This document shows, piece by piece, positions 38,013-63,697 of a stretch of DNA of 64,000 nucleotides. Position 1 is the stretch's first letter. Each line of letters begins with the position of its first letter. A program made the position numbers and the translations under genes. Source of the stretch: Lachnospiraceae bacterium (lineage in GTDB: Bacteria > Bacillota > Clostridia > Lachnospirales > Lachnospiraceae); contig JAAUZL010000024.1 in NCBI GenBank assembly GCA_014804615.1, positions 288,809 to 352,808 of the forward strand. Reading direction: 5' to 3'. The notes under the pieces were generated by a model, which did not search any database, was not told where the DNA came from, and saw only the letters and a list, made by a program, of their open reading frames with translations.

Positions 38013-38555
38013 ATGGACAGACGACAGCAGAAAACAAGGCAGGCTATTTTTAACGCATTCAGCAGCCTGCTTGAAAAGAAAAGTTTTGGCAACATTACGG
38101 TACAGGAAATCATAGACGAAGCAAACGTGGGAAGAAGTACTTTTTATGCCCATTTTGAAACAAAGGAAAGCCTGTTGGAAACAATGTGTAAGGATATTTT
38201 TCAGCACGTTTTTTCTGATGATTTAAGACAGGAAAACGGTCACGACTTTTCCCATGCCGGACATGATTTTGAAAAGGAAATCACACACATCTTGTACCAT
38301 TTACAGGACAACAGAAAGAACTTAAAAGGACTTCTTTCCTGTGAAAGCGGGGAAATTTTCATGGGATATTTTAAAGAGTATCTGCGGGAAATGTTTTCGG
38401 ATTCAGTGAAAAAGCTGCATTACACATCACCGCCGGAATATGTTCTGCATATGACAGTATGCAGCTTTGCGGAAACACTGCGGTGGTGGATCACGGAGCA
38501 TAATGATTATACACCAGAGCAGATTGCATCATATTTTATGGAATTTATATGCTAG
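38013..38555 (+). CDS. TetR/AcrR-family transcriptional regulator
   Basis: The 180-residue protein is the only clear plus-strand gene. The N-terminal helix-turn-helix reads RQAIFNAFSSLLEKKSFGNI followed by TVQEIIDEANVGRSTFYAHF, which fits TetR closely. The C-terminal ligand domain (about 60-180) resembles the TetR_C_7 type of Firmicutes. The ATG at 38013 has ACGGAGA upstream; an upstream in-frame ATG has weaker support. It probably represses itself and the divergent P1B ATPase through the half-sites between them. Its 3' end overlaps the convergent acyltransferase gene by 4 bases, the right edge of this accessory patch. Confidence 0.88.
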   Translation: MDRRQQKTRQAIFNAFSSLLEKKSFGNITVQEIIDEANVGRSTFYAHFETKESLLETMCKDIFQHVFSDDLRQENGHDFSHAGHDFEKEITHILYHLQDNRKNLKGLLSCESGEIFMGYFKEYLREMFSDSVKKLHYTSPPEYVLHMTVCSFAETLRWWITEHNDYTPEQIASYFMEFIC

Positions 38556-39625
38556 AGATCTGATGATAATTTAGCTGTCACCCGTCCAAACACCCAGGCC
38601 CTCACCGCATCCACCACTGTCCCGATCACATACACGAGCAGAACACATCCGATCAAATGCGGCAGGAAAAGAAAGCTCTTCGCCACCTTCTCTACGCCCA
38701 GCCACTTCATCCATTCATAGCGCACCAAAATATGCTCATGCAAAAGATACACGCCAAAGGTATAAGGAGCCAGTTTCCTCACCATTTCAGCGAAACGTCC
38801 CTCCTTGATCCGCATATTCTTAAACACATAGAAAAGAGATACCGAGCCCGCGAGACAGAGCAGATGATTGTAAGTGTAAAGCATATTTGCATAGTGAACA
38901 AACGTCTCCATTTCACTTCCGAGCGTATTGGACGCCAGCGCCAACAGCCATATCAACAAGGCGGAAAGCGCATAAGCTCCCACCGCATTGGACTTCTTCT
39001 CCAACCAGGAAATACCATACAGCCTGATATAGCCCGCCACCACGAACAGACATAAAAACCACCCGAAATCATAGCCGTACCGATCCGTCGCCAGATACAG
39101 GGGAAGAATCGTCTTTTCCAGCACAAAAAATGTAAGCAGCAATGCTAAGAGTATCTGCAGATCCCTCTTTTTCATCTTTTCTATGCCCGCCGACAAAAAA
39201 GGCGCAAACAGATACATGACAAGATAGGCCGTGGCAAACCAATAATGCTCTGTCCCAAAAGGAAATAGAAAACCAATCCATTTATAAATATCAAGCTCTC
39301 CCCCGGAAACCAAGCCGGCCAAAAGAAGGAAGACCGGAACCAACAGAGAATAAAAAAGAACCTGAGAAAGCAGGGACACCACCCGCCCCGGCTTCCACGC
39401 AGATTCCACAAGAAAATATCCGCTGATAAGAACATAGCAGTTTACCGCCACAATACAAAACGCCTCGATCAGCCATGCCAAAACGCCGACCGGATCATTC
39501 TTTACGACAAAGGGAAATGACGTGGCAACTCCACCCTTCACCAGATAGTGGAGAGAAATGATCATGAGCATCGCCACAATGCGCAGCAACTCGAAATTAG
39601 CCTGTCTCTTGCTTCCCGTTTCCAT
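38552..39625 (-). CDS. Acyltransferase family 3 membrane protein (O-acetyltransferase-like)
   Basis: The 357-residue protein has about ten helices. The family-3 start is NFELLRIVAMLMIISLHYLV, where the His is the conserved catalytic one. Later blocks include HYWFATAYLVMYLFAPFL and YTFGVYLLHEHILVRYEWM. It would acylate, most likely O-acetylate, a sugar of the glycan on the membrane. The start at 39625 has GAGGAAGGG upstream; a longer form starting at 39661 or at the GtrA stop is possible. It lies directly downstream of the gtrA-like gene in transcription. Confidence 0.8.
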   Translation of the reverse strand: METGSKRQANFELLRIVAMLMIISLHYLVKGGVATSFPFVVKNDPVGVLAWLIEAFCIVAVNCYVLISGYFLVESAWKPGRVVSLLSQVLFYSLLVPVFLLLAGLVSGGELDIYKWIGFLFPFGTEHYWFATAYLVMYLFAPFLSAGIEKMKKRDLQILLALLLTFFVLEKTILPLYLATDRYGYDFGWFLCLFVVAGYIRLYGISWLEKKSNAVGAYALSALLIWLLALASNTLGSEMETFVHYANMLYTYNHLLCLAGSVSLFYVFKNMRIKEGRFAEMVRKLAPYTFGVYLLHEHILVRYEWMKWLGVEKVAKSFLFLPHLIGCVLLVYVIGTVVDAVRAWVFGRVTAKLSSDL

Positions 39626-39693
39626 GCGTTTCCCTTCCTCTGCATCGTCATCCGATGACATACTCCTTTTCAAAAATGCCACAGTCCCTATCA

Positions 39694-40137
39694 TTAATTG
39701 TCGCCGTCGGACGAGGATTTTTTGAAGATCCAGATCTTGCTGAGCACATAGTTTGCCAGGATCACCAGCACTTGGCAGACAAGCTTGGAAATCTTGTCGT
39801 TGATGGACAACAGATCCACCATCACATACATCAGTACCAGTTCCAGCACCTCCGTGGCGATCCGCGCCCCGATAAAGGAGACAAACTCTTTTACGACAGA
39901 TCCGGTATCCTTATTCTGACTCTTAAATACAAAGGTTCTGTTCGTCCAGTAGGCAAATACCACTGTGAGCACCCAGGACAATACCGTGGCTGCCATATAG
40001 TGCAGCTGCATTGCATCCGCGAACAGAAAATACAGAATATAATTCAAAACAAAGGCAAGGAACCCGAAGATCAGATAATTGATCCCCTCCTCATGCTTTT
40101 TATACAATCCCCAGCCGAAATCCCATAGCTTTTTCAT
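39694..40137 (-). CDS. GtrA-family membrane protein
   Basis: The 147-residue protein has four helices and fits GtrA: INYLIFGFLAFVLNYILYFL, then VLSWVLTVVFAYWTNRTFVF with the family's W-x-x-NR-x-F-F/V signature, and LVILANYVLSKIWIFKK at the end. GtrA proteins are thought to flip polyprenyl-linked glucose for side-chain addition. A GtrB-like GT2 (26.5 kb) and a GtrII-like transferase (42-43.5 kb) are in the same locus. GAGGAGAAAAG precedes the ATG. Confidence 0.88.
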   Translation of the reverse strand: MKKLWDFGWGLYKKHEEGINYLIFGFLAFVLNYILYFLFADAMQLHYMAATVLSWVLTVVFAYWTNRTFVFKSQNKDTGSVVKEFVSFIGARIATEVLELVLMYVMVDLLSINDKISKLVCQVLVILANYVLSKIWIFKKSSSDGDN

Positions 40138-40151
40138 TCTTTTCTCCTCTT

Positions 40152-41906
40152 TTATCTCTCACGGGAAATTTTCCCCGCATCGACACGATAGACCATATCA
40201 CATTTTTCAATTGTCTGCAGTCTGTGCGCGATGATAACGAGCGTCTTTCTGCCGTGCAGCCTGTTGATGGAATCCATGATGGCCGCCTCTGTCTCATTGT
40301 CGAGAGCCGAGGTGGCTTCATCCAACACAAGCACTTCCGGATCCTCATAGAGCGCTCTGGCAATACTGATACGCTGTCTTTGACCGCCGGATATGCGGAT
40401 ACCCCGCTCGCCGATCCCGGTCTCGATCCCTTCCGGCAGACTTCTCACGAAATCATCAAGAGCCGCCTCCTCCAGAGCACGCCAGACCTTCTCCTCGTCA
40501 ATCTCCTCCTCCGGCACGCCGAAGGCCACATTCTTGCGGATAGAATCGTCTATCATGAAGATGGTCTGCGGAATATAGCCAATGTTTTTAAGCCATCCCT
40601 CGTAGTGCCCGCTGACATCCACACCGTCCGCCAGGATTCGTCCGCTCTCCATCTGCAAAAGCCCCAGCAGGATATCCACGATCGTCGTCTTTCCCGCTCC
40701 CGTGGTGCCCACGATCCCCACCGAAGAGCCGATCGGAATCTGCATCTCCGCATGATCAAAGATCCATTTTTCCGTGTTCGGATACTTGTAGGTGATATTC
40801 TCCAGCCGGATCTCTTTTTGTACCGGCAGTCTCTCTACGCTCTGCTTCTGTCTGTACGCCTCCGCATCATAAATCACTTTGCCGTCGTGGATCTCCTCCT
40901 GCAGATTATCGCTGACACCCATAAAGAAAGGCTCAAAATAGGAGATAGATGTCTGATAATTGTTAATCCGGTTTACACTGGGGAGAAGCCGCATAGCTGC
41001 CGCTGCCAACGCGGAAAGCTGGGGCACCAGATCCTTCACCTGTGTCCCCTGCCCGATGGAGAGAACAAAATACCCCACCATACCCGCGATACATACAGTC
41101 TCTATCAAAAGTCTCGGCGTTGCATTAAACAGATTATACTTCTGCACGGAGTTGACATAGCCCGCCCCGCATTTGGCATATTCGTTGATAAAATAATTTT
41201 CCTTGCAGCCGATCTTGATCTCCTTAATGCCCATCACCGACTGCTCGATCCACTTGTACAGACCGCTGTAATAGTCCTGATTGTCCTGCCCGGCCTTGAT
41301 CATAATAGGCTTCAAGATCTTTTTGATCACCAGAAGCAGGATCACCATAAGCGCCGCCACCGTGACAATCATCATGGCGTCCGAGTAGAGAAACAACGCT
41401 ACTACCAGACAGACAAAAACAATACACTCACTGAACAGCTGCAGACAGCTCAGGATCAGTCCGTACATATTGTTTACGTCAGATGTGATATTTCGCTGAA
41501 TCACAGACGTATCTGCGTTCAGATAATACTCGTAAGGTCTCTGCATGAAATTGATCATCATGCGTCTGGAAGTGGCAAACTGATTCGTGTATACGAATCG
41601 GAGCTGCACCTTCTGCTGGAAGAAGAGATAGACATTTTTGATCACCGTCATCCCCACAAAAGCCAAGAGCAGAAACATGGCAAATTCCGCATTGCTGCGC
41701 ATCCCGAGCAGCTCATATACTGAAGATAGCAAATCGCTATCCTGCACTGCCTCCGGATCCATCACTACCGTCACAATAGGCACAAGCATGGAAACACCCA
41801 GACTCTCCAGCACACCGCCGATGAGCATCATAATGATGAGCGCTATCATGGCACGTTTCTGCTTCCCGTCCAGCAGAACATTCATTTTCTTTAAAATTCT
41901 AAGCAT
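40152..41906 (-). CDS. pglK: PglK-like ABC transporter (fused permease-ATPase, lipid-linked glycan flippase)
   Basis: The 584-residue protein joins six membrane helices to one ATPase domain. The Walker A is VGTTGAGKTTIVD, the signature is RISGGQRQRISIARAL and the Walker B VLVLDEATSALD; a switch His (IIAHRLQTI) is present. The size, the T-T-G-A-G-K-T form and the glycan context match PglK/WlaB-type flippases that move undecaprenyl-linked oligosaccharides outward. No Wzx flippase is seen in the window, so this is the best candidate for export of the repeat unit. The ATG at 41906 is preferred, with AAGGAAACGG upstream. Confidence 0.85.
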   Translation of the reverse strand: MLRILKKMNVLLDGKQKRAMIALIIMMLIGGVLESLGVSMLVPIVTVVMDPEAVQDSDLLSSVYELLGMRSNAEFAMFLLLAFVGMTVIKNVYLFFQQKVQLRFVYTNQFATSRRMMINFMQRPYEYYLNADTSVIQRNITSDVNNMYGLILSCLQLFSECIVFVCLVVALFLYSDAMMIVTVAALMVILLLVIKKILKPIMIKAGQDNQDYYSGLYKWIEQSVMGIKEIKIGCKENYFINEYAKCGAGYVNSVQKYNLFNATPRLLIETVCIAGMVGYFVLSIGQGTQVKDLVPQLSALAAAAMRLLPSVNRINNYQTSISYFEPFFMGVSDNLQEEIHDGKVIYDAEAYRQKQSVERLPVQKEIRLENITYKYPNTEKWIFDHAEMQIPIGSSVGIVGTTGAGKTTIVDILLGLLQMESGRILADGVDVSGHYEGWLKNIGYIPQTIFMIDDSIRKNVAFGVPEEEIDEEKVWRALEEAALDDFVRSLPEGIETGIGERGIRISGGQRQRISIARALYEDPEVLVLDEATSALDNETEAAIMDSINRLHGRKTLVIIAHRLQTIEKCDMVYRVDAGKISRER

Positions 41907-41993
41907 GATCCGTTTCCTTCTCATTCCCTATCCGCATAACAGGAATATCTTACCACAAGTGTGTATTTCACGCAAATAATGAACATCTTTCAA

Positions 41994-43488
41994 TCAGTAA
42001 AAATATATGATGATTTTGCCGCCATTCACATAGCAAGAATAGACAGAGTTCTTCATTATCGGCTCCGCGGACTCGACAATCTGATTATCCGTTTCATTGT
42101 CTGATTCTATTGTCAGATCACCCTGCATATAGTGCAGCACCCAAGCTCCCCCCATCCAGGAATCATTTGTAAAATATTTCGACATTATACTCTCATAAAT
42201 AGGGTATTTGTCATACAACATCTGCATACGCTTAGTCCTTGGCATCTGCCCGATAAAGGAAACGGTAGAAAATTCATTTTCTACATTGATTGTTTCTATA
42301 TCATGTACGATATTGTATACCAGATATGACGCATACTCTTTTTGGTTATTGAGTGCATTTCCGTAGGAGTACATATAAGTATAATGATAGAGAATACACA
42401 AAATCAGCAGTACGGGCAAAAAAATTTTATGTTTTTTAGCATAATATAGTATAAATATACCTATATAAAGAAGAAAGCCGCCTAATGCAATAAATATTCT
42501 GGTTTTTAACATTAATGTTCTGAGAAGCATTATTGGCAAAAAAGCTGCAATAAACACAAATATCGGAGAAAGAATAAGAAAAACAATATCGAAACCCTTG
42601 CGCCATCCTGTTCTGTTGCTTTCCTTGCAATATAGGAAGAGTATGGCTGCGATAGCCAGTACAATCATCAGTCCTAAAGCGATCTGATACCATAAGCCAG
42701 TTTTGGAGAAAAAATCTTTTATGTAGATACAGGATTCCCAAGTGTTTTGTATAATAGTTTTGATGGAACTGAACTTTAAATCAACTGTTTGTGATGCTTC
42801 ATAGCGCCAATCGCTTTGGCTGACATAGTGGTTTGCAATGACAATTTTGTAAGCAATGGATCCTGCTCCAATGCCGGCGACTCGTACCCCCCCCCCGTAT
42901 AAAATCTAACTTCTTATCGTTGATAACATAGAAAAAAACACTGATAATTAGTAATATAAGACACATACCGAGTGCCGGTTGATACAAAGACATAATTGCC
43001 ATACTCAAAACCGATGAATAAATAAACAAGGCTATCTTAGATATAGTATCAGGTATGGAAAATATAATAAACGAAAGAGCAAGCGCAGTAAACATAACAA
43101 TGGCACCGTATCTATAAGATAAACATTCTATTGCCAACGGATTGGTAATGACAAGCAGTAATACCGGAATCAGCATATACTTATTAAAAACGGAGTCCAG
43201 ATTTATTTGGGCATACAAGATGAGCGTATAAGACAGCAACAGTACCAATAAAATCAACGGAAGCGGTGCGGTATCCGTGACCGGTTCTCCACCGCATAAC
43301 ATGAGAACTAAATATTCACCAAGCGGTCTTCCATCGCTTTTCAGCCCTATGGTTCCGCTTAACGACCATCCTAAATCGTCTTTATAATATAAATTTACTA
43401 AAATAATTGGAAAAACATATAATAAACTCAGAAGTGATAGTACAAAGAACTGAACCATATATTTTTTATCCAGTTTTAGCCATTTCAT
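41994..43488 (-). pseudogene. GtrII-type glucosyltransferase, split by a G10 tract (possibly phase-variable, OFF as written)
   Basis: Two ORFs, an N-terminal part ending at 42799 and a C-terminal part in another frame, join into one protein of about 497 residues if one G is removed from the ten-G run at 42887-42896. The joined frame is open throughout (…GGVRVAGIGAGSIAYKI…NTWESCIYIKDFF…). The length and the outer loop YYKDDLGWSLSGTIGLKSDG plus GRPLGEYLVL fit GtrII/glucosyl transferase II proteins, GT-C enzymes that add a sugar to a surface polymer. As written, translation from 43488 stops after about 229 residues. A GGAG site is well placed before the ATG and a strong promoter lies upstream. 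A sequencing error in the homopolymer is the main alternative. Confidence 0.8.
42887..42896 (-). repeat. G10 homopolymer (C10 on plus strand) inside the GtrII gene
   Basis: Ten consecutive G on the coding strand, followed by TACGAGTC. With nine G the two halves of the gene are in one frame; with ten they are not. Tracts of this length slip during replication and are known contingency switches in surface-glycan genes of other bacteria. Confidence 0.9.
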
Positions 43489-43525
43489 TTTGGGTTTCTC
43501 CTTTTTTAAGCATATTTTATTGTAG

Positions 43526-43554
43526 ATTCTATAGTATATTGAGGACAGTGTCAA
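43526..43554 (-). promoter_or_regulatory. Strong sigma-70/A-type promoter before the GtrII gene
   Basis: On the minus strand TTGACA (43549-43554), a 17-base spacer and TAGAAT (43526-43531) are seen, one mismatch from full consensus. The start of transcription would be about 30 bases before the ATG at 43488, leaving room for the AAAGGAG ribosome site. It is the clearest promoter in the window and could drive GtrII, the flippase, gtrA and the acyltransferase. Confidence 0.7.
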
Positions 43555-43593: not shown

Positions 43594-44664
43594 CTAGATT
43601 TCCTCATTCTGTCGATGCAGCTTAGGGTCCTCGTAGTGATCCATAAAGTCTTCCCCCAGATAGACGATCTCCTCGGCAAAACGAATCGCATGCACCACCG
43701 TAAAGACAGAGATCACCCGGCGGAAAGTAAGCCCTTCGATATAATTGAGGACCTCCATGGGAAATTTTTTATCCAATATGATATGCTCCGGAAAAATTTT
43801 TTCGTAATCCAGCACATCTCTGGGATGGGGCTTGATCAGGATCACCGACTCCGTCCCTGCTATTTTCCCATACTGTTCGATGCAGTCCCGGAAGATCTGC
43901 TCCCGCACATCCAGCTCACACAGCGGCTCCGTCAACAGCAGCACCTTATCTTTATCCGCTGCCAGGTTCCTTTTGATCTCCTCAATATTTGCAATAAACA
44001 GCCGCACCAAGAGGGCCTTGTCCTCCCCGGAAAGATTCTCAGTCAGTTCCTTCCTGGGCTTCTCAATATATTTCGGACAAGGGTATGGCAGGACGGAAAT
44101 GTCATTGACCTCCATATCCAAACAGTATTTCGCCCAGCCATTCTGAATAAAGATCAGATTTTTTGATGCCAGATACGCCTTCAGCTTAAAATGTCCCCTG
44201 TTGTCATAGCGGGCCGTATCATAGGTGCTGATACAGTCAAGCCCATCCTCCAGCGCATGGTAGGGAATCCTGCGCCAGCTTAGATAATAACCTATGGGGT
44301 CTGAATCGCAGAATACATAGACATCCCCATACTCCTTAAAATCCACCGGCACATAAGGCTGCTGCGCTTTCCCCAGCAGCTTGGTGTAACGGATGCGGGC
44401 CAGCAGATTCAGAAACAGATTGCCTCTGTCGGTGTGATACTTCATGATTTCCGGAAAAGTAACATCCTCCTTCTCCTCAAACATATACACCGCCTCAAAA
44501 AGGCCACAGTCCTCGGCGCGCTTTTGCAGATCGCCAAAGTCATTGGACATAGTACTCAGCACCAGAGTCGCATTCCCCCGCTTACTCTGCTCCAGATTCA
44601 GTTCCTTTAAACACGCCACATATACATGATAGTAGGTGTGGCAAACGTAAATTCTATCCTTCAT
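43594..44664 (-). CDS. Sialyltransferase-like glycosyltransferase (GT52/GT38 type)
   Basis: The 356-residue protein carries the two marks of several bacterial sialyltransferase families: a D/E-D/E-G motif in HALEDGLDCIST (catalytic acid) and an HP motif in ILIKPHPRDVLDY (CMP binding). The start KDRIYVCHTYYHVYVACLKE also fits GT52-type enzymes. With PseI, PseF and other Pse enzymes in the same locus, the likely donor is CMP-pseudaminic acid and not sialic acid. It acts in the cytoplasm on a lipid-linked or protein acceptor. It is 1 base from the ATP-grasp gene end, so cotranscribed with it and pseI. Confidence 0.75.
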   Translation of the reverse strand: MKDRIYVCHTYYHVYVACLKELNLEQSKRGNATLVLSTMSNDFGDLQKRAEDCGLFEAVYMFEEKEDVTFPEIMKYHTDRGNLFLNLLARIRYTKLLGKAQQPYVPVDFKEYGDVYVFCDSDPIGYYLSWRRIPYHALEDGLDCISTYDTARYDNRGHFKLKAYLASKNLIFIQNGWAKYCLDMEVNDISVLPYPCPKYIEKPRKELTENLSGEDKALLVRLFIANIEEIKRNLAADKDKVLLLTEPLCELDVREQIFRDCIEQYGKIAGTESVILIKPHPRDVLDYEKIFPEHIILDKKFPMEVLNYIEGLTFRRVISVFTVVHAIRFAEEIVYLGEDFMDHYEDPKLHRQNEEI

Positions 44665-44665
44665 C

Positions 44666-45979
44666 TTATTTTTCTTTCTCTGTCTTTTCCTCGACCAGAG
44701 TAATCTCCACCCTGATCTGCGAAAGTATTTGTTTTCCCCGCTTCATGGCTTCCTCCGCCGCCTCTCCCACCGTGATCACATGACCCAGTCTGTCGTTGCT
44801 GGAATGGGTGCCGCACACCGTATCTCCCGTTTTTTTGTAGATCACGATTTCCTCTACGCCTTCTTCCCCGTAAAGAGACTCAGGCACGGTGATCCCAGCA
44901 AGCACACCCTGCGCCTCCTCCGGTGCATGAATGAAATGAATGGCCGCGCCGCGCTGCCGCTTGGGTGTAAGATCCGGCTTTTCTCCTGTCGCCAAGAGGA
45001 CAGAAGCTCCCACCATATCGATTCCTGTAGAAAGAGGCACCAGTTTTGAAGTGATAAAATCGCCCCCCAAACGGGCAGCCAACTCCACGACCTTAGGACC
45101 CTCTTCGGTTACCTTGATCTCCACATGGGCGGGCGCATTCCCAATACCGATGGCTTTGATTGCCTGCACTGCCACTTGTCGTATCTGCTCCTGCGTTTCT
45201 CCATCCAACTGACTTGGCTCGCAGTGGGCCAGCTCTACGAAATAAGGGAGCGGCGTGATATACTTGTCCGTGATCGAGAGGATATGGGGTTCGCCCTCCA
45301 CCACAATAGCCTCCACACTCACCTCCGGACCCTGCATATATTCTTCCACCAACACAGTGCCGTTTCTGGAGTTGCTCTTGCTGTACTCATATGTCTTTTG
45401 TTTCAATTGAAGAAGCTGCTCAGCGTATGCAGAAAGTCGTCTCTTCTGCTCCTGCTTGCTCATCTTCAATGCCTCGCACTCAAGAAGCATTACGCCCCGG
45501 CTCCCCGCATTGTCCGCCGGCTTCACGATACAATGGCCATCCAGTCTGTCCACCGCATCCGAAAACGCCTCAAAATCAACCGTCACATAATAGTCAGGTA
45601 TCGGTACGCCGCATTTTTTTAAACGCTCCCGCATCTTGTCTTTAATGGTGGCGCAGAGGGAATTCTCATAGGACAGGTCCGGCCGTTTTCCCAGCTTTTC
45701 ATTGACATAGGCCGCTGTCCGCACCGGACCGTCACTGGTGGAGGTGATTACCACATCAGGCTCATAAATCAGCGCCTGCCTGTAGACCTCCTCCTGATCC
45801 AATGTGCTCACCACCAGCTTTTCATCCGCCAGGGCAAACCCCACCGCATTCTCATCATAATCCACCAGGATCACCCGATAGCCCAATTCTTTTGCCTTCT
45901 CGATGGCGGGTACCTGCAGGGCGCTGGCCCCTAGGATCATCATTTTTTTCTGTTTCTCACTCACTTCGGTTTTTTCCAT
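44666..45979 (-). CDS. ATP-grasp domain ligase
   Basis: The protein of about 437 residues has a PurK/CarB-like preATP-grasp start (KMMILGASALQVPAIEKAKE), the ATP-grasp loop HCIVKPADNAGSRGVMLL, an EEYMQGPEVSVEAIVVEGE block and the C-terminal Glu/Asn-type metal site in VVELAARLGGDFI. It joins a carboxylate to an amine or similar nucleophile using ATP. It lies between pseI and the sialyltransferase-like gene, so it may modify the nonulosonic acid, which has a carboxyl group and amino groups, for example by adding an amino acid; this is inference. The ATG at 45979 has GAGGAAGCGG; 46000 is an alternative. Confidence 0.78.
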   Translation of the reverse strand: MEKTEVSEKQKKMMILGASALQVPAIEKAKELGYRVILVDYDENAVGFALADEKLVVSTLDQEEVYRQALIYEPDVVITSTSDGPVRTAAYVNEKLGKRPDLSYENSLCATIKDKMRERLKKCGVPIPDYYVTVDFEAFSDAVDRLDGHCIVKPADNAGSRGVMLLECEALKMSKQEQKRRLSAYAEQLLQLKQKTYEYSKSNSRNGTVLVEEYMQGPEVSVEAIVVEGEPHILSITDKYITPLPYFVELAHCEPSQLDGETQEQIRQVAVQAIKAIGIGNAPAHVEIKVTEEGPKVVELAARLGGDFITSKLVPLSTGIDMVGASVLLATGEKPDLTPKRQRGAAIHFIHAPEEAQGVLAGITVPESLYGEEGVEEIVIYKKTGDTVCGTHSSNDRLGHVITVGEAAEEAMKRGKQILSQIRVEITLVEEKTEKEK

Positions 45980-46006
45980 CAAATCCGCTTCCTCAGCCAT
46001 CAGAGT

Positions 46007-47062
46007 TTATTCCACATACTTCCAGTCCATCGGCGTTCCACGGGAAATGTCGCACCGTGCCCGCTTCCCCAATATCTCCTCATAATACCTCGGCGCCATA
46101 CCGAAGGCGGGTCTGATCGACCGCATATTTTCAGCCGTGAAAACGTCTCCCTTTTTCATGTCTGCTGTCACAAACAGGGAGCGGCCCTCCTCCCGGCTTC
46201 TCTCCTGCTTCTCGGTCAGACAGTAGGTGACTTTCCCCAAAGCTTTCTCCACGATGCGGATCTCATCCACCATACGCTTAAACTCCGCAAGTTCCATGGA
46301 AAACGCCCCATCCGGGCCGCCGTCCGCCCGTGCCAGCGTAAGATGTTTCTCCACCATCACGGCGCCCAGCGCCACACCGGCCACCGCCACAGCGCTTCCC
46401 ATGCTGTGATCGGAAAGCCCCGTCAGACAGTCAAAGGTCTCCGCCATATGGGGGATCACCCTGAGATTCATATCCTCATAGGGCGTGGGATATGTGGACG
46501 TACACTTCAAAAGTATGATCTGTTCGTTTCCTTCCTCCCGGCAGGTTCTGACCGCCCTCTCAATATCCTCCAGATAAGCGATCCCCGTTGCCATGATGAC
46601 AGGCTTTCCAAGTCCCGCTATCTTACGGATCAGCGGAATATCCTGTATCTCAAAGGATGCGATCTTATAGGCGGGCATCTTCATCTTCTCCATAAAGTCC
46701 ACCGCCGTGAAATCAAAGGGCGAGGAAAAACACTCCATCCCCAGATCGTTGGCAAGCTTCATAAGATCCGGCTGCCACTCCCAGGGCGTGTACGCCTCTT
46801 TAAATAAATCATAACAGGTTCTGCCGTCCCAGATCGTTCCCTGGGTAATCTGAAAATATTCATTGTCACAGTCCATGGTAATGGTATCCGCCGTGTAGGT
46901 CTGCAGCTTCACCGCATCGGCTCCCGCCTCATGAGCTGCCCTGATGATCTCTTCGGCCCTCTTTTTATCCTGCAGATGATTGGCCGATACCTCCGCCACG
47001 ATGAAGGTCTGCTCTCCCTCTCCCACATATCGATTCCCGATTTTAATTTTCTGCTGATCCAT
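46007..47062 (-). CDS. pseI: Pseudaminic acid synthase (PseI, NeuB family)
   Basis: The 351-residue enzyme begins with FIVAEVSANHLQDKKRAEEI and continues AGADAVKLQTYTADTITMDC, typical of PseI within the NeuB family. It also has KIASFEIQDIPLIRKIA and TGLSDHSMGSAVAVAGVALG, followed by VEKHLTLAR. A C-terminal SAF antifreeze-like domain (about 285-351; GRSLFVTADMKKGDVFTAEN) closes the active site of the partner subunit. It condenses the 6-deoxy-2,4-diacetamido altrose product with phosphoenolpyruvate. The start at 47062 has AGAAAGGG upstream. Its usual partner pseF is separated from it by the 9 kb AT-rich island. Confidence 0.93.
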   Translation of the reverse strand: MDQQKIKIGNRYVGEGEQTFIVAEVSANHLQDKKRAEEIIRAAHEAGADAVKLQTYTADTITMDCDNEYFQITQGTIWDGRTCYDLFKEAYTPWEWQPDLMKLANDLGMECFSSPFDFTAVDFMEKMKMPAYKIASFEIQDIPLIRKIAGLGKPVIMATGIAYLEDIERAVRTCREEGNEQIILLKCTSTYPTPYEDMNLRVIPHMAETFDCLTGLSDHSMGSAVAVAGVALGAVMVEKHLTLARADGGPDGAFSMELAEFKRMVDEIRIVEKALGKVTYCLTEKQERSREEGRSLFVTADMKKGDVFTAENMRSIRPAFGMAPRYYEEILGKRARCDISRGTPMDWKYVE

Positions 47063-47491
47063 ACATTTCCCTTTCTGATGATTCGCCGCCTTCATACAAT
47101 ACAGGCATAAGGTCTAACCGTCTGCTCTCTCACACGTTGCTACGGAGCATTTGTCTATATCACAAGCCATGATAAAATGAGGATTTTTATTCATATTATC
47201 CTCAATATCAGCTTATTTTTCTGGTTATTAAAATTTTAGAAGCATTTTAGAAACACGATCTTGGATACTCTTGAGTAAATCTTGTTTAATTTGAAACAAA
47301 TTTATTCAAACTATTGTTTCAATACCCAATATGAATCTTGCTGATTAGTTGAGTATCAAACCAACCCTTAAACCAATTGTTAAACCAATTGTTATTTTAT
47401 TAATATTGGTTTAATCCCGAAAAAGGCTAATTACAAGCCTCTCAACATTTTTAAGATATCATTATCAAACCAATTCTTAAACCAATTTTAC
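47063..47491. other. AT-rich spacer at the left edge of the inserted island
   Basis: No gene is seen in these 429 bases. Two loose inverted repeats occur: TGAGGAT/ATCCTCA (47178-47184 and 47198-47204) and a 9-base perfect pair TTGAAACAA/TTGTTTCAA (47291-47299 and 47314-47322). A regular repeat array follows at 47358-47485. The pseI ribosome site and probably its promoter lie at the left side. Base composition changes here from the mixed glycan genes to the AT-rich island. Confidence 0.7.
47358..47485. repeat. Array of AAACCAA motifs at 12-bp spacing
   Basis: AAACCAA occurs at 47358, 47370, 47382, 47467 and 47479 (exact 12-base steps within each group), with one inverted copy TTGGTTT at 47406, which is 24 bases after 47382. 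The flanks are similar (TTAAACCAATTGT). Such phased repeats look like protein-binding iterons or a recombination site. They lie directly downstream of the AlbA_2/GHKL gene. Confidence 0.75.
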
Positions 47492-49207
47492 TTAATCATT
47501 CTGCTTGTCTTTGACTAAAACCCAATGGGAAATTTGTTTGTTATCAGAATCCGTGGTTATAATCCCCTTTCTCTTAAGCGCTGTAAGCAATGTTAAAACT
47601 TTTCGCTCCTTCTGACTGGAAGAAAGCGTATCTGGAAACTTGCCAACCAGCAAATCACGTATTGCAGCCTTATTTGCTTTTCCGAATTCTTCAAGATAAT
47701 TAACAATCATATCTTGATAGTATTTGTTGTCAAACGCCTTATTTTTTATATACTGTGCTTTATCCTCCGCCGTTTTTGCCAGAGGAGCTGCCAAATACAA
47801 GTTATTTACTCGCCCCTCCACCAACTTGTGCTTCCTTAAATGTGCTGTTGCTTCCCTAGAAATTGGTTTTCCTTTTTGCACCTGATCCAGCAAATAGACA
47901 GTCATCAAATTAAGATCCTCATTATCATGGAGCAAGTAAGTAAACTTCTCGTTTATCTCTTTCCCATAAATTGACACCTTAACTCTGTCATTTGACGTAA
48001 TGTCATAGTCTGGCAACGGAAAGAACTTCTCCCGCTGAATGTGAAATACTCGCCGGATTCCCGTTGTCTCTGTATCTATCATCTTAAACATCACCATCGC
48101 TTCTGCCAAAAGCTGATTACGATAGAACGGAGATGTATATCCGGGGTTCAAAATAGGTTCTATACTTTCTGGAATGAAGCTCCCCGGATTTGTAAGAATC
48201 AATTCATCTTCAAATTCATTGACATAGATTCGCCCACCTAAATTATAATTAGAATGAGCAATACAATTATTGAGCAATTCCCTCAATACCCATGTATCAT
48301 ATTGCTTGGTTTCCATTGGGAATAATGTCATTTGATCCGGCATATACCTATATGTGAGGTTTCGGATATTTCCCAGAATCCTGTCACTAAGTGTAATAAA
48401 AGGTATCTTGAATATCTTATAATCTTTTACCATCTCCTTTGAATCATAAATACGCCATGAAGCCTCCGGCACGCTCTCAAACAGATAATCATATGCGGAA
48501 TTCCCCAGTAGCAGCATTGCTGCATTTGTAACCTTGCCATTGACAACCAGCTTCCTTCTCTCCAGAAACTCCTCGTCCGTCATTTGATCCACTTCATCAG
48601 AAATATGCTGTTCATCCATCTTTTCCTTATACTTATTTCTTGCAATAGCAATGGCATCTGCATCCAAATGCTCAATTGTGGCATTAGGTATAAATCTCTT
48701 CGACCAATCCAACCTTACCTGCCGCCGAATGCGTTCTCGTTTTTCTTCCGATAATGGTACAAGCGATTCTCCGTCACGACCATATTCCTGATTATGCCAT
48801 CCTGTTGGAATAGCAGTTATAGCTGCTGGTATTTGAAACATTATCACTCGTTTTTCATTTCCATCTACTATCGGGAAAATCTCGTAAATATCAATAAACG
48901 AAATACCACCTGTAGTAGCAGAACCAATTTCATGTTTTAAAGTGTCCAGACCATTACTGTTTCTATACTCAGTCCCCACAATCTTTCGTTTCTTATTATT
49001 TACTCCAAATACAAGCCAGCCATATTGCAGACCACGTAAATTGGCTTCATTACTTAACGCAGAGAAATAACGTCCAATCTTGTCCCTGTCATAATCCTTT
49101 CCGGCTTCCTTGAACTCAACCACTTCATCTTCCCAATTATCAATCAAGCTATAAAGCGTGAGGATCATCTCTTCATTTTTTGATTTCTTTAATGACTTAA
49201 TATCCAT
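47492..49207 (-). CDS. AlbA_2 (Schlafen-type) plus GHKL ATPase-like regulator protein
   Basis: The 571-residue protein has an N-terminal AlbA_2 domain (about 25-120; EVVEFKEAGKDYDRDKIGRY, GWLVFGVNNKKRKIVGTEYR), a middle region, and a HATPase_c_4-type segment with RELLNNCIAHSNYNLGGRIY and ELILTNPGSFIPESI. A winged-helix-like C-terminus with RKVLTLLTALKRKGIITT follows. Proteins of this build are usually DNA- or RNA-binding regulators and often sit in mobile or defence regions. It is last in the island, 53 bases after the radical SAM gene, so it may belong to the same transcript. The ATG at 49207 has AGG nine bases upstream. Confidence 0.8.
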   Translation of the reverse strand: MDIKSLKKSKNEEMILTLYSLIDNWEDEVVEFKEAGKDYDRDKIGRYFSALSNEANLRGLQYGWLVFGVNNKKRKIVGTEYRNSNGLDTLKHEIGSATTGGISFIDIYEIFPIVDGNEKRVIMFQIPAAITAIPTGWHNQEYGRDGESLVPLSEEKRERIRRQVRLDWSKRFIPNATIEHLDADAIAIARNKYKEKMDEQHISDEVDQMTDEEFLERRKLVVNGKVTNAAMLLLGNSAYDYLFESVPEASWRIYDSKEMVKDYKIFKIPFITLSDRILGNIRNLTYRYMPDQMTLFPMETKQYDTWVLRELLNNCIAHSNYNLGGRIYVNEFEDELILTNPGSFIPESIEPILNPGYTSPFYRNQLLAEAMVMFKMIDTETTGIRRVFHIQREKFFPLPDYDITSNDRVKVSIYGKEINEKFTYLLHDNEDLNLMTVYLLDQVQKGKPISREATAHLRKHKLVEGRVNNLYLAAPLAKTAEDKAQYIKNKAFDNKYYQDMIVNYLEEFGKANKAAIRDLLVGKFPDTLSSSQKERKVLTLLTALKRKGIITTDSDNKQISHWVLVKDKQND

Positions 49208-49260
49208 AATCAAAACCTCATTTTGATCTTCCTGTCATACCTACCTAAATAGTTTCCCAA

Positions 49261-52692: not shown

Positions 52693-52707
52693 ATAGCACC
52701 TCGTTTA

Positions 52708-54378: not shown

Positions 54379-54395
54379 ATATAACAGCCTTTCTG

Positions 54396-55541
54396 TTAAA
54401 ATAAATTTAAAAACATTGTATCACTAAAATATTTACTTTTTGCATAACACTCTGTAACATATACTGGATATAAATGGTTTGCCCATCTTGAATCCGCTCC
54501 ATAACAAACCGGATTACGTTCATTAATAATATTTGCAGAAATTAAATCTACTTCTTCCGTATCCAACCCCTTATTCATTTGTTCTTCAGTAACCAAGATT
54601 TTCTCAATCTTTAAAATACCATCAAATGCATTAGCCGTATACTTTTTATCTCTAATTCGCAAATACCATACTGCATATTTCATTCCTTCAAGTCTCGGTG
54701 AAGAATACAAACTTACTGGTGTTCTATGATATAATTTCAAATCAGCTATCATATCTGAGTTGTTCTTTTTCTTTTTATCTTTACAATTCTCAGGATTAAA
54801 CGATTTTGATACGCCAACCACATAGCTAAAATTCTTTTGAAATTTGCGTTTTTCCCTCTCATTTTTTATATGGTCAACACGATATTCCAATGAACCATCT
54901 TTCATAAGATAATGTGTTGAATTAATTCTATTCTCTGAGACCAGCTTTGTTACCATGTCAATTTCACGTTGAATCATCAAATCCTGTATTACTGCAATTC
55001 CTTTGCTTTCAATTCTTTCAAATTCATCAACTTTTGTGTTGTAAGGTAAAATTTCTGTAAACTGTATATTATGATGTTTTAATCTGGAATTTTCATTTAA
55101 TTTGCTGCACAAATTTGAAAAATACACTGTTTTATTCCAATCACTTTGACTCGCTACTTTGGGTAGGGCAATTGCCAATCTTCTATCAAAATCATATTTC
55201 TGCATTTCTTTATTAACACGTTTGCAGCAACTTACTCCAACTTGTCCAGCAATTACAGGATATACCTTATTTTTATAAGCAATATCGTCTACTTTATATG
55301 TATGGCGTGAGCCATCCAAGAAATATGTAAACAATGGGTTCCCATTCCGACACTGGTCTGCCTTTCTCAACATACTAATCGCTTTATCTGGAGGAAGTGT
55401 TTCACCATATTTTTCCCATGTAATTTCCTGATGGTCATCATAGTCAAAAGAAAGTATTTCAGAACCTTCACATATATATTTATATGTTCTATAGCTCTTT
55501 CCTCCTGTTTCATGAGCAATAATATCCATTATACTATCCAA
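54396..55541 (-). CDS. NurA-like nuclease-domain protein
   Basis: The 381-residue protein shows TYFLDGSRHTYKVDDI (Asp76-Gly-Ser), the conserved first acidic motif of NurA nucleases. Later it has YRVDHIKNEREKRKFQKNF, VVGVSKSFNPENC and a C-terminal KYAVWYLRIRD ... LYPVYVTECYAKSK block that also fits the fold. NurA pairs with HerA to resect DNA ends, and here a HerA-like gene follows by 17 bases. The start at 55541 is a TTG preceded by AAGGAGAGG; an ATG at 55529 is the alternative. It is the first intact gene of the island operon and its leader overlaps the remains of an XRE regulator. Confidence 0.7.
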   Translation of the reverse strand: MDSIMDIIAHETGGKSYRTYKYICEGSEILSFDYDDHQEITWEKYGETLPPDKAISMLRKADQCRNGNPLFTYFLDGSRHTYKVDDIAYKNKVYPVIAGQVGVSCCKRVNKEMQKYDFDRRLAIALPKVASQSDWNKTVYFSNLCSKLNENSRLKHHNIQFTEILPYNTKVDEFERIESKGIAVIQDLMIQREIDMVTKLVSENRINSTHYLMKDGSLEYRVDHIKNEREKRKFQKNFSYVVGVSKSFNPENCKDKKKKNNSDMIADLKLYHRTPVSLYSSPRLEGMKYAVWYLRIRDKKYTANAFDGILKIEKILVTEEQMNKGLDTEEVDLISANIINERNPVCYGADSRWANHLYPVYVTECYAKSKYFSDTMFLNLF

Positions 55542-56180: not shown

Positions 56181-56921
56181 TTACTTGATGATAGTAGCGG
56201 CCCTGCCAGATTCAACTGTTCTACCACCCTCACACGCTTTCCGCATCATTCGGTATTTTATCTCCGCCAGTTCCCAGTCCGACGGATTGTCGATATCCTG
56301 CACCTCCGTCTCCGGCACAATGATGGGCAGATACCCGTCCGGCAGATCCCCTCTGCAGGCGCGGTAACGCGTCACGTGATAACAGTAAAACTGTCCGCTG
56401 TCGTGATACATGGGCTCCAGATCCTGAGACCGTTTCATGGCATTTTCGGGATAGCAGTACGCAAGTTTTCCCTCGCGGATTGCCATACCCCGCTGGGGCG
56501 GAAAGGAGAACCGCACCACGGGCATTACTCCTGAAGCATCCTTCTCTATCAGAAGGGACATAGCCTCCTGCAGTTTCCCCGCTGTCACAAAGGGCGCGGT
56601 GGGATAGATACAGGCCATATAGTCAAAAAGCTCACCACGTTTTTCGTAGGTTTCCAGCACTTCCATCAGCACATCGTCCGTGGTGGCAAAGTCTCCCGAC
56701 GTGGCCTCACTTCTCATAAAGGGCACCACCGCCCCTGCCTCACGCGCGATCCGCGCGATCCCCTCATCATCGGTGGACACCATGACCTCCCGGAAAATGC
56801 CCGCCTCCAGTGCCGCCTCGATGGCATAAGTAAGCATGGGCTTTCCCATAAACTCTTTCACATTCTTTCCCGGGATACGCTTACTACCGCCCCGCGCCGT
56901 AATAATCGCTATTGCATTCAT
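56181..56921 (-). CDS. pseF: Pseudaminic acid cytidylyltransferase (PseF)
   Basis: The 246-residue enzyme has the CTP-binding start AIITARGGSKRIPGKNVKEF, then MVSTDDEGIARIAREAGA, YPTAPFVTAGKLQEAM and VQDIDNPSDWELAEIKYRMM, as in PseF/NeuA-type CMP-sugar synthetases. It activates pseudaminic acid with CTP for the transferases. The start at 56921 has GGAGGGAACG. After the usual end near YRMMRK there is a tail of about 17 residues that runs straight into the TnpV remnant in the same frame, so the C-terminus may have been altered by the insertion. A sialic or legionaminic acid substrate is less likely given PseI, PseC and PseB. Confidence 0.9.
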   Translation of the reverse strand: MNAIAIITARGGSKRIPGKNVKEFMGKPMLTYAIEAALEAGIFREVMVSTDDEGIARIAREAGAVVPFMRSEATSGDFATTDDVLMEVLETYEKRGELFDYMACIYPTAPFVTAGKLQEAMSLLIEKDASGVMPVVRFSFPPQRGMAIREGKLAYCYPENAMKRSQDLEPMYHDSGQFYCYHVTRYRACRGDLPDGYLPIIVPETEVQDIDNPSDWELAEIKYRMMRKACEGGRTVESGRAATIIK

Positions 56922-56948
56922 CGTTCCCTCCAAAATTGACTGATATAG

Positions 56949-59093
56949 TCAATCTTTCATACACATATAAATTTCATCCGCGATCCGCTCTGCACCTCGT
57001 CCATCCGTGACCTCGGAAAGTTTTTCCTTCATGCACTCCCGCAGCGATACATCCGTGATCATTTTCCTGATCCCGTCACACACCGCTTCGACGCACGCCT
57101 CCCTGTCCTGCCGGATATCACCCGCATAGAGCATACGCCCCTGCTCTGCGAAGAAATCTTTGTCGTACCGCTGGTTATCCGCCGTCACAAAGAATACCGT
57201 GGGCACCTGCATGGCGCTCAGCTCAAACAACATCGTTCCCGCTGCGGATACCGCTCCGTCGCACTCTGCCATCAAACCCGCCATATCCCGGCAGGGCCGA
57301 TAAAGCTTTACATTCGGATGCTCCTCTGCAAAGGAGACAAGCTCCCGCTCTCTGGGGTGCCTGCCGCCGACTACCGTGTGGAAAACAACCTTTTCCAGTC
57401 CCTCTGTCTCCACGGCTCTCTGTAAAATCCCCAGAAGCGCATCCTGAGCATCACCGCCGCCACTGGAAAGAAGCACAGAAAATGTTCCATCCTCTGGTCG
57501 AGAGGCTGAACGCGTTTCTCTTCCAAACTCCTCCCGCAAAGGCACATAGTCCGGCCCCAGAAGAAGCTTTGTTTTATCGCCGTAGGTCTCCTTATAGGGG
57601 AACCGCGCATGATATGCATTGTAATTGATCAAAACATCCACCGGGCAGACCACATCAAAACAATCGTCGATCCATATAAGCTTTGCCACATCCCGCAGTT
57701 CCTCGAAATAGGCGGGCGTCACCTGATAGGAATCCACCAGAAGCGTCTGAATCCCTGCCAAAGACAGCATTCTCTTCAATCTGGGAATCTCTTTCTCCAT
57801 CTGGTTCCACTGCGTATGCAGACAAACCTGCTCCATTCCTGCCTCGGACAGCATCTTCTGTGCCCCTTCGTCCGCCGTAAAAAACAAGACCCGGCATCCC
57901 TTCTTTCGCAGCTGCCTGGCGATGGTGATACAGCGCATGATATGCCCTGTGGCAACTGTGTCATTCGCATCCGCTCGTATTCCGATCACAGTCTGCTCTT
58001 CATATGCAGAAAGCACCTGTGCGATCCGTTCCATCTCCCGGATGCCATATCGCTGGTCAATGGGCAGCGCCAGCAAATGCTCGTAGATATAGTCCTCATC
58101 CCCCTCAAAAAAATCAGGAGCATCCTCACTAAAAGGCCAGAGCACCGGAGCGTAAATATCATGTTCCGTCAAAAATCTCTGCAGATCCTCCCGCTCCTTC
58201 GCGTAGATGGGCAGATAGAGCGGCGCCTCCACTCCCTGCATGACCAGAACCGGCCGCAGTCTTTTCATGCCTATCATCTTTTCATATAAAAAGCTCTGAT
58301 TCTCCGCTCTTTTATGTCTGGCCGCCTCCTCATCCGTCTCAGACAGGATTGCCGCAGACACGCCGGACATTCGGCGCACCCCTTCATACCGATCCAGCGC
58401 CTCCTCCAGAGAGCGGTTCTTACGCAAAAAAAGCTCCTTTTTCTCTGGCAGAACTTCCGCACCCTGTAAATATTCCCATTTTTGAACCAGGGGTTCCAGC
58501 CTCTCCTCTGCGTAAGCTTCCCCGTCCTGCAGAACATCCTCTGCCAACGGCAAATCAGAGACCACAAATCCGCCATCGGGAACCGGATACCATTTACGCA
58601 GACTTCCCACTACAAAATCCGCTTCCTGCCCCGCCGCTTCCAGATAGTAGGACTGGGTCACATCCTCCATCACCAAAATACCGCTCTTTCTGAACACCGG
58701 AAGCTGCGCCCGCAGATCGCTGAAAGTGTCTTCTCCGTAGTAAGGGTGAACAAAAACAAGTCCCGGATTCGTTTCCAGAATCATCTGAAAAAGTGTTTCT
58801 CCGGTCGATTCGAGTCCACTGTCCACCGCATAGAAGATAAGCTCCCATCCTCTGTGACGAAAAGGTGCAAACACTGAATCGCACATATAAGCCGGCATCA
58901 GACACCGCTTCGGGACATCCGGTCTCTCCCGTTCCAGACTGATCAGGGCAAGCTCAATAGCCTCTCTGCCGGAAGCCGTATAAGATTTATGCTTTTTCCC
59001 ATACTTCTCCACATGATTCAGGCACAATGTTTCTGCTTCCACACGCTTCCCGGTCACAGCGGGAGCCACTTCATAGATACTTCCGATCTCCAT
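56949..59093 (-). CDS. Fusion: DegT-like aminotransferase domain plus PseG UDP-sugar hydrolase domain
   Basis: The 714-residue protein joins two units. Residues 1 to about 360 form a PLP aminotransferase-like domain: SYTASGREAIELALISL (phosphate cup), LVMEDVTQSYYLEAAGQEAD and VVGSLRKWYPVPDGG, where Lys167 is the expected Schiff-base residue. From about residue 370 a GT-B-type PseG unit begins: IGIRADANDTVATGHIMRC, LLVDSYQVTPAYFEELRD and VLLSSGGGDAQDA. PseG removes UDP from the diacetamido altrose before PseI acts. A separate PseC aminotransferase exists in the locus, so the N-terminal unit is probably for another sugar or a further modification. The start at 59093 lies 2 bases after the GT2 stop and has a GGGAAG site. 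Confidence 0.85.
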   Translation of the reverse strand: MEIGSIYEVAPAVTGKRVEAETLCLNHVEKYGKKHKSYTASGREAIELALISLERERPDVPKRCLMPAYMCDSVFAPFRHRGWELIFYAVDSGLESTGETLFQMILETNPGLVFVHPYYGEDTFSDLRAQLPVFRKSGILVMEDVTQSYYLEAAGQEADFVVGSLRKWYPVPDGGFVVSDLPLAEDVLQDGEAYAEERLEPLVQKWEYLQGAEVLPEKKELFLRKNRSLEEALDRYEGVRRMSGVSAAILSETDEEAARHKRAENQSFLYEKMIGMKRLRPVLVMQGVEAPLYLPIYAKEREDLQRFLTEHDIYAPVLWPFSEDAPDFFEGDEDYIYEHLLALPIDQRYGIREMERIAQVLSAYEEQTVIGIRADANDTVATGHIMRCITIARQLRKKGCRVLFFTADEGAQKMLSEAGMEQVCLHTQWNQMEKEIPRLKRMLSLAGIQTLLVDSYQVTPAYFEELRDVAKLIWIDDCFDVVCPVDVLINYNAYHARFPYKETYGDKTKLLLGPDYVPLREEFGRETRSASRPEDGTFSVLLSSGGGDAQDALLGILQRAVETEGLEKVVFHTVVGGRHPRERELVSFAEEHPNVKLYRPCRDMAGLMAECDGAVSAAGTMLFELSAMQVPTVFFVTADNQRYDKDFFAEQGRMLYAGDIRQDREACVEAVCDGIRKMITDVSLRECMKEKLSEVTDGRGAERIADEIYMCMKD

Positions 59094-59095
59094 GC

Positions 59096-60133
59096 CTACT
59101 TCCCTTTCCTGCTCCATTTCTTTCTCAGATTGCGATAGGTCCACAACAGTTTATAATATCCCACGAACAAAAGCGTAGATCTCATCTGCATGCGGATCAG
59201 CTTTTTTTCCTCCTCATGGGTTCGTTCACAATAATAGGGATTGCTTTGAAAATCAGGAAAGCGCCATCTAAGCTCCTGCCCCAGCTCTTTTACAAAACGG
59301 CAGCTCGTCCACTTTACTCCCGCCATATAGGTAAACAGCGTATTCACATAAAAAAGAAGGGTAAAGCTGTACTCTAATTCGGGACGATATCTGTCTAAAA
59401 AATCATGCCGTTCAGCCTCCGCAATCATCAGCCTTCCGGCCTCCATACGGTCCTCGCAGCGTTTCCTTGAAATAGTATGCACGGTAGAGGATTCGTGTTG
59501 ATAATAATAATACAACGGCTCCTCAATATACTCAAAATGCCTGGCCAGCACGAGATAAGAATTACCCAAAGCATTGTCCTCATAAAAAATATGCTCCGGA
59601 AACCACAATTCGTTATTCAGAATCATCTCACGGCGAAAGATCTTCACCACCAGACTTCCCCCGTCCAGGATCAGGCTCCGTCTTTTCTCATCGTCCAGCA
59701 CACCCGTCTGGCTCATTTTATTGTTGTGCACCACCTGTCCCACTTTCATCGAATGTTCTGAAGTGAGGCAATAATCGCAGCCCACCAGATCGGCTCCCGT
59801 CTCTTCTGCTCTTGTAAGCAGACGCTCATACATATCCGGCGTGATCCAGTCGTCACTGTCAATAAAGCCAATCCAATCTCCCTGCGCCATTTTCAGCCCT
59901 ATATTCTTAGCGCCTCCCTGATGCCTGTTTTCCTCCGAGTGCACCGCGCGAAACTTCTCGGAAAACCGCTTTTCATATTCTTGCAATATCGTCCACGATT
60001 CGTCGGTAGAGCAATCATCCACCGCAATGATCTCATAATCTGTGACAGTCTGTCCCACCAGAGAGTCCAGACAATATTCCAGTTTATGATCCGCCGCCAT
60101 ATTGAAGACCGGCACTATGATACTAAGCTTCAT
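59096..60133 (-). CDS. Glycosyltransferase family 2
   Basis: The 345-residue GT-A enzyme has the start KLSIIVPVFNMA, the UDP-binding block IIAVDDCSTDESW and the metal site GDWIGFIDSDDWITPDMY, then EHIFYEDNALG (a catalytic-base type E-D). The C-terminal 120 residues are basic and may bind the membrane surface. It overlaps the YfhO-like gene end by 11 bases, with GGAGAAT upstream. It lies among the Pse enzymes and adds an unknown residue of the same glycan. Confidence 0.9.
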   Translation of the reverse strand: MKLSIIVPVFNMAADHKLEYCLDSLVGQTVTDYEIIAVDDCSTDESWTILQEYEKRFSEKFRAVHSEENRHQGGAKNIGLKMAQGDWIGFIDSDDWITPDMYERLLTRAEETGADLVGCDYCLTSEHSMKVGQVVHNNKMSQTGVLDDEKRRSLILDGGSLVVKIFRREMILNNELWFPEHIFYEDNALGNSYLVLARHFEYIEEPLYYYYQHESSTVHTISRKRCEDRMEAGRLMIAEAERHDFLDRYRPELEYSFTLLFYVNTLFTYMAGVKWTSCRFVKELGQELRWRFPDFQSNPYYCERTHEEEKKLIRMQMRSTLLFVGYYKLLWTYRNLRKKWSRKGK

Positions 60134-62440: not shown

Positions 62441-63634
62441 CTACATCCGATAGTAGGTTACGATCTTTTTTACTGCCTCGATCACGCTCTCCACATCCTC
62501 ATCGCTCATCGCATAATAGAGCGGCAGAGAAATGATCTCCTCATAAAGTTTCTCCGCATTAGGGCACAGTCCCCGCCGATATCCCAGCTTTTCATAGTAA
62601 GGAAAATAGTAGGTCGGTATATAATGTACGTTGCAGCACACCTTCTCCGCCTTCAGTGCCTCAAAAAACTGTTTTCTGTCGATCCGCAGTTTTTCCGGAA
62701 CGATCCGCAGGATATACAGATGCCTTGTCGTATCCGACTCCGGAATCTCCCGCTGCACAAACAGCTCCGGCAATTCGGAAAACGCCTCGTCATATCTCTT
62801 TACGATCTCTTTTCTGCGGCTGCTGAACATGGGCAGCTTATCCAGCTGGCTGATGATCAACGCCGCCTGCATATCCGTGATGCGGTAATTATAGCCCAGC
62901 GCGATCTGTTCGTAATACCAGGGGCCGTCCGATTCGTTCTCCATCTGCGACTCATCTTTTGTAATACCATGAGCGCGGTACAATACCAGCTTTTTATATA
63001 GCGCCTCATCGTTTGTCAAAACAGCGCCGCCCTCACCGCCTGTCACGGTCTTGACAGGGTGAAAACTAAATGTAGTCATATCCGCAATAGAACCGTTGGT
63101 CCGTCCTTTGTATTTTGTGCCGATCACATGAGCGCCATCCTCGATCAGCGTAAGTCCATGCTTTTTACATATTGCCAGAAGAGGATCCAGATCTACCGAT
63201 TGTCCTGTAAAGTCCACCGCCACCACTGCCTTTGTCCGGGGCGTGATTGCTTCCTCCACCTTCCCTGGATCGATATTGTAGGTCTCCGGATCAATGTCCG
63301 CAAAAACGGGCCTTGCCCCACAGTAAAGCGCACAGTTTGCCGATGCCGCAAAAGTGATAGGAGTCGTGATCACCTCATCTCCCTCACCCACGCCTGCTGC
63401 AAGAGCCGCCATGTGCAGCGCCGCTGTGCCGTTTGCGCAGACCACAGCGTATTTTGCTCCCGTCAGCGCACACAGTTTCTGCTCCAGCTCCCCGATCTTC
63501 GGCCCACAAGTCAGAAAGTCGCTTCGAAGCACCTCCGTCACCGCCTGAATGTCCGCCTCGTCTATATATTGATGCCCGTAAAATATGGGGGTCTCCCTCA
63601 CCGGCTTTCCGCCTTCTATTGCTGGTTTTTCCAT
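62441..63634 (-). CDS. pseC: UDP-4-amino-4,6-dideoxy-L-AltNAc transaminase (PseC)
   Basis: The 397-residue DegT-family enzyme shows YGHQYIDEADIQAVTEVLRS and DFLTCGPKIGELE, ANGTAALHMAALAAGVGEGD, IEDGAHVIGTKYKGRTNGSI and FSFHPVKTVTGGEGGAVLTN, with the Schiff-base Lys in HPVKT. The blocks, including F-H-P-V-K-T-V-T-G-G-E-G-G, are typical of PseC. It aminates the C4 keto group made by PseB. The start at 63634 has a strong GGGAGGAATT. It lies 63 bases after pseB, in the normal pathway order. Confidence 0.92.
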   Translation of the reverse strand: MEKPAIEGGKPVRETPIFYGHQYIDEADIQAVTEVLRSDFLTCGPKIGELEQKLCALTGAKYAVVCANGTAALHMAALAAGVGEGDEVITTPITFAASANCALYCGARPVFADIDPETYNIDPGKVEEAITPRTKAVVAVDFTGQSVDLDPLLAICKKHGLTLIEDGAHVIGTKYKGRTNGSIADMTTFSFHPVKTVTGGEGGAVLTNDEALYKKLVLYRAHGITKDESQMENESDGPWYYEQIALGYNYRITDMQAALIISQLDKLPMFSSRRKEIVKRYDEAFSELPELFVQREIPESDTTRHLYILRIVPEKLRIDRKQFFEALKAEKVCCNVHYIPTYYFPYYEKLGYRRGLCPNAEKLYEEIISLPLYYAMSDEDVESVIEAVKKIVTYYRM

Positions 63635-63697
63635 AATTCCTCCCGTACCAGAGAGAGGACACGCATTTCCACACATGTCCTCCTTGTATTCATTCTT

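Follow-up and report, generated by a model that had tools for sequence, protein, structure and literature searches.

The length of a poly-G tract sets the reading frame of an otherwise intact GtrII-type glycosyltransferase gene in the gut Lachnospiraceae bacterium studied here, as judged from the frames, the conservation of residues and the Pfam match of the read-through protein. The tract, the offset between the frames and the intact remainder of the gene are all directly observed. So is the existence of a genus-wide class of such tracts, which are abundant, have a peak length of ten, are frequent in surface-glycan genes and occur in both in-frame and broken states. The best explanation, and in our view a likely one, is that the GtrII gene is a phase-variable contingency gene. 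Slippage at this particular tract, its reversibility and a glycan phenotype remain inferences, and neither a second strain nor sequencing reads were available.

Structure of the split GtrII gene

The gene lies on the minus strand of the window, by which we mean the whole 64,000-nucleotide stretch that was analysed. Its first part (42799..43488) starts at the ATG at 43488 and runs for 197 codons to a tract of exactly ten G, present on the plus strand as C10 at 42887-42896, beyond which an early stop gives an out-of-frame product of 229 aa. The second part (41994..42905), which ends at the stop at 41994, is open from 42905, that is, from upstream of the tract, and the two frames overlap across the G10 one nucleotide apart. 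Joining them gives a read-through of 497 codons and a protein of 497 aa, the same length as its orthologues. This protein matches PF14264 (GtrII) at model positions 4-316 of 317 with 70.2 bits (cut-off 30), which we regard as a full-length match, while the first part alone reaches only positions 4-171. Of the residues that are invariant in eight aligned orthologues, 61 of 64 are kept before the tract and 76 of 80 after it, a proportion like that in the orthologues themselves. Retention of these residues after the tract argues that this part has not decayed, and no second lesion was found in the gene besides the G10 frame break. Upstream are a sigma-70-like promoter, TTGACA-17-TAGAAT, with 11 of 12 matches (43526..43554, minus strand), and a ribosome site, AAAAAAGGAG (43498..43507, minus strand), 9 nt before the ATG.

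The original prediction had described a GtrII-type gene split at a G10 run, joinable into a frame of about 497 codons of normal GtrII length, free of other lesions in either half and preceded by a near-consensus promoter and a good ribosome site. Each of these points held. An intact GtrII paralogue with 33% identity and without a tract is present elsewhere in the same genome (C24:192684-194171). No solved structure related to the GtrII protein was found when searched by sequence, and the structure model of an orthologue (mean pLDDT 46) was too poor for a fold search. The enzyme probably adds a side sugar to a surface polymer, but both glucosyl transfer and an effect on the glycan are inferred, and the sugar and the acceptor are unknown.

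Genomic setting

The GtrII gene is set among genes for pseudaminic acid synthesis, PseI, PseF, PseG and PseC, all of which score above NCBIfam cut-offs, and every feature of the cluster given here is on the minus strand. On one side are a GT52 or polysialyltransferase-like protein (43594..44664; Pfam), an ATP-grasp protein (44666..46000; profile match) and the pseudaminic acid synthase PseI (46007..47095; TIGR03586, 480.7 bits, cut-off 340). On the other are an ABC transporter with membrane and ATPase domains (40152..41924; Pfam), for which a role in glycan export is likely but inferred, a GtrA-like membrane protein (39694..40137; Pfam) and an Acyl_transf_3 membrane acyltransferase (38552..39694; Pfam). 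Further away are the pseudaminic acid cytidylyltransferase PseF (56181..56933; TIGR03584), a protein with a PseG domain (56949..59144; TIGR03590) and the aminotransferase PseC (62441..63676; TIGR03588). From sequence alone, we infer that the Pse enzymes, together with the GT52-like protein, exporter, GtrA-like protein and acyltransferase, form a cluster for a pseudaminic-acid surface glycan. The arrangement does not meet that of a classical gtr operon (gtrA-gtrB-gtr), in that the ABC transporter separates the GtrA-like protein from the GtrII gene and there is no adjacent gtrB. The neighbours of the GtrII orthologues match those in the window only weakly (25-33% identity). Between PseI and PseF there is also a block (47492-55541) encoding SLFN/AlbA_2, radical-SAM, HATPase and HerA/mad8-like proteins, and it resembles an inserted defence island.

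Orthologues and the age of the tract

Ten orthologues were found within the genus, with 54-65% identity, and all are intact and of the same length. A G run at the tract site, which was sought in these ten close orthologues as a sign of deep conservation, is absent from them; they carry an invariant Glu codon there, in place of the Gly that the run encodes in the window gene. Deep conservation of the tract in the GtrII gene was consequently dropped. The absence of the run from close orthologues, and their Glu codon, indicate instead that the tract is young, lineage-specific and no old feature of the gene, which qualifies the original prediction. In the G-rich context seen in relatives, a single A-to-G change could give a long run. 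A tract so young may be an accident, and this possibility weighs against the switch reading.

Long G runs in the same genome

Within the window, G/C runs become about 4-6-fold fewer with each extra base, and none is longer than six except the G10 of the GtrII gene. The genome as a whole contains two exact G7 runs, no G8 and ten runs of G9-G11 (three G9, six G10 and one G11). With so few runs of seven and eight and ten of nine or more, the long runs are a separate class and not the tail of a distribution. The genome therefore has several loci with a repeat tract longer than chance, as would be looked for in a phase-variable organism: four of the ten tracts are inside genes, those in a response regulator, an AraC-type regulator and a hexapeptide O-acetyltransferase being in frame and that in GtrII out of frame. 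One further tract is at the 3' end of another response-regulator gene, and others are close upstream of genes, for example a histidine kinase and a raffinose-synthase-like gene. The hexapeptide O-acetyltransferase gene with its in-frame G10 (G000:C24:61754-62719; L008, L139) is a second candidate switch in this genome, and its relatives in two other species also have an in-frame G10 (L143, L144). Loss of mismatch repair was checked as a cause of the runs, but mutS and mutL are both intact.

Poly-G tracts across the genus and family

Runs of at least nine G are present in 73 of the 77 genomes of the genus. Totals for the genus are 516 G7, 441 G8 and 2672 nine-G windows, against 57-150 such windows expected under geometric decay with a ratio of 0.25-0.35. 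The lengths of 69 unselected tracts peak at ten (11 G9, 41 G10, 12 G11, three G12 and two G13). When 299 genomes were sampled across the family, at close to one per genus, only 87 of them held an exact G10 at all; the genome studied here has six, and another member of the genus has 23.

An automatic and rough sorting of 101 tracts placed 37 in frame on the G strand, 15 splitting or just upstream of a frame, seven in frame on the C strand and 42 in intergenic or unclear positions. According to Pfam, the coding tracts are in acyltransferases, hexapeptide and MBOAT O-acetyltransferases, FkbM and other methyltransferases, and further in WcbI, TylF, sugar ATP-grasp, YfhO, DUF6020/DUF6056, AlgX-like and CotH proteins and two DNA methylases. 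In glycan clusters of two relatives, many successive genes carry a G10 (L039-L042). These loci were picked for their clustering of tracts and inflate the share of glycan genes; outside them, by our own count, surface-glycan genes still account for over half of the clear coding cases. In four other genes the tract interrupts the frame, and the parts that flank it match complementary stretches of a single Pfam model: two Acyl_transf_3 genes (L039, L100), a YfhO gene (L113) and a C5 DNA methylase gene with a G11 (L088; G002:C110). In an ornithine-cyclodeaminase-like gene, the tract, at the same site in both species, leaves the frame intact in one, with G9, and breaks it in the other, with G10 (L079, L122). 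A G11/G10 pair (L073, L105) was not counted as a length switch, the total length and frame being identical. The C5 methylase gene and an N6_N4_Mtase DNA methylase gene with an in-frame G10 (L099; G065:C4) raise the possibility of phase-variable methylomes.

Tracts also occur in leaders. The leader GGAAGCGGATTTCGTC-G10-TAAA(A)-ATG precedes flagellin-like genes, with exactly G10 in seven species and G7 in an eighth; the G10 is 4-5 nt before the ATG in L125, L127, L128, L129, L131, L132 and L135, and the G7 is that of L126. Such a leader could conceivably act as a switch of motility at the level of the Shine-Dalgarno sequence. In 70 of 100 genus tracts the run is followed directly by T, and the next base is often A (TAAAA), both inside and outside genes, for which we have no explanation. 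In two assemblies, scaffold gaps are flanked by two copies of one tract of unequal length (G11/G10 in L083, G002:C84; G11/G9 in L094, G004:C2). Assemblies break at the G runs, and mixed lengths are perhaps the cause.

A proposed switch and its known counterparts

In the mechanism that we propose, slipped-strand mispairing at replication would add or remove single Gs in the GtrII tract, and each gain or loss would bring the part beyond the tract into frame or put it out of frame. The recorded length, G10, would represent the OFF state with its truncated 229-aa protein, and cells with a tract length that joins the frames would make the 497-aa enzyme, which probably places a side sugar on the surface polymer. 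The locus would then be one of a poly-G phasome common to the whole genus. Several lines of evidence favour this reading: the excess of G9+ runs and their bimodality, in this genome as in its genus, and their much greater scarcity elsewhere in the family; the length peak at ten, as in Campylobacter jejuni (PMC4965091); the placement of coding tracts largely in surface-glycan and methyltransferase genes; the four other split genes and the pair of cyclodeaminase-like genes in and out of frame; and the undecayed remainder of GtrII, whose read-through covers the full Pfam model. That the gene is a candidate phase-variable switch, as originally predicted, is thus supported as the best reading and strengthened by the comparison across the genus, although switching itself has not been shown. 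The intact mutS and mutL count against it, since slippage should be partly repaired.

Slipped-strand phase variation at G runs is a textbook feature of a handful of Gram-negative pathogens, and the strategy is best known from Campylobacter. C. jejuni NCTC11168 has 29 loci with G runs of seven or more (PMC4965091), and its poly-G contingency genes resemble the present ones in having runs that span 8-12 and peak at ten in surface-glycan modification genes, at many loci per genome, turned on and off by frame (PMC4965091). They differ in that the genus studied here has intact mutS and mutL and several tracts in leaders near the start codon, and in that switching has not yet been measured. The phase-variable gtr glucosyltransferase operons of Salmonella (PMC3688519) likewise encode a phase-variable, GtrII-like membrane enzyme for modifying a surface glycan; for our gene this is only proposed. 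A GtrA-like protein is nearby here too. Switching of the Salmonella gtr operons is epigenetic (Dam/OxyR) and needs no repeat tract, whereas a repeat tract is present here and an adjacent gtrB is not. In gut Clostridia, phase variation has been described as DNA inversion (reviewed in PMC11868660). The invertible promoters of C. difficile share with the proposed switch heritable on/off switching in a gut Clostridium, but there recombinases invert the DNA (PMC11868660), and here slippage of a mononucleotide run is proposed.

No paper on poly-G phase variation in Lachnospiraceae or Clostridia was found in the open-access literature searched; subscription papers and preprints were outside its scope. 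The original remark that such tracts are less often reported in Clostridia was understated, as we met no report at all from Lachnospiraceae in that literature, though the genus is rich in them. The proposed mechanism is of a known kind, and its lineage and scale are, within the same limits, unreported. A bolder reading, on which the evidence seems to us evenly balanced, is that the genus evolved a two-level poly-G phasome independently of Campylobacter. This would combine frame switching of surface-glycan and DNA-methylase genes with tuning of translation start by a G10 in the Shine-Dalgarno position, as in flagellin, with mismatch repair kept and lengths held near ten.

Alternative explanations

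A miscount in sequencing or assembly could have broken a gene whose true tract length leaves it in frame. Long G runs are difficult to count, the assemblies of relatives break at them (as at L083 and L094) and scattered N occur near some tracts of this genome. However, the three other in-gene tracts of this genome keep their frames, a sign that long runs were counted correctly in the assembly, and there is no N in the window. We consider a miscount unlikely and, even if it were right, the GtrII tract would remain a candidate switch. It is also unlikely that the gene is a young pseudogene, in which a long run arose through a chance A-to-G change and slipped once, without any selected switching. 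In favour of this are the absence of the tract from all close orthologues, where it replaces a conserved Glu, and the intact GtrII paralogue. Against it, GtrII has no further decay, and chance does not explain a large genus-wide class of tracts with a peak at ten, mainly in such genes. Least probable is recoding, in which slippage of RNA polymerase or the ribosome on the run lets a G10 allele yield some full-length protein while its DNA stays unchanged; transcriptional slippage can arise at homopolymer runs and the two GtrII frames overlap across this one, but the orthologues have no run, so any recoding here would not be conserved, and many in-gene runs of the genus are in frame and do not need recoding.

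Significance

If phase variation is the right reading, and many G10 switches are kept in glycan, flagellin and methylase loci, every population of these bacteria would be a mixture of surface types. This would have consequences for phage attack, antibody coating, the comparison of strains and the calling of genes, and the split genes in these genomes would be states and not pseudogenes.
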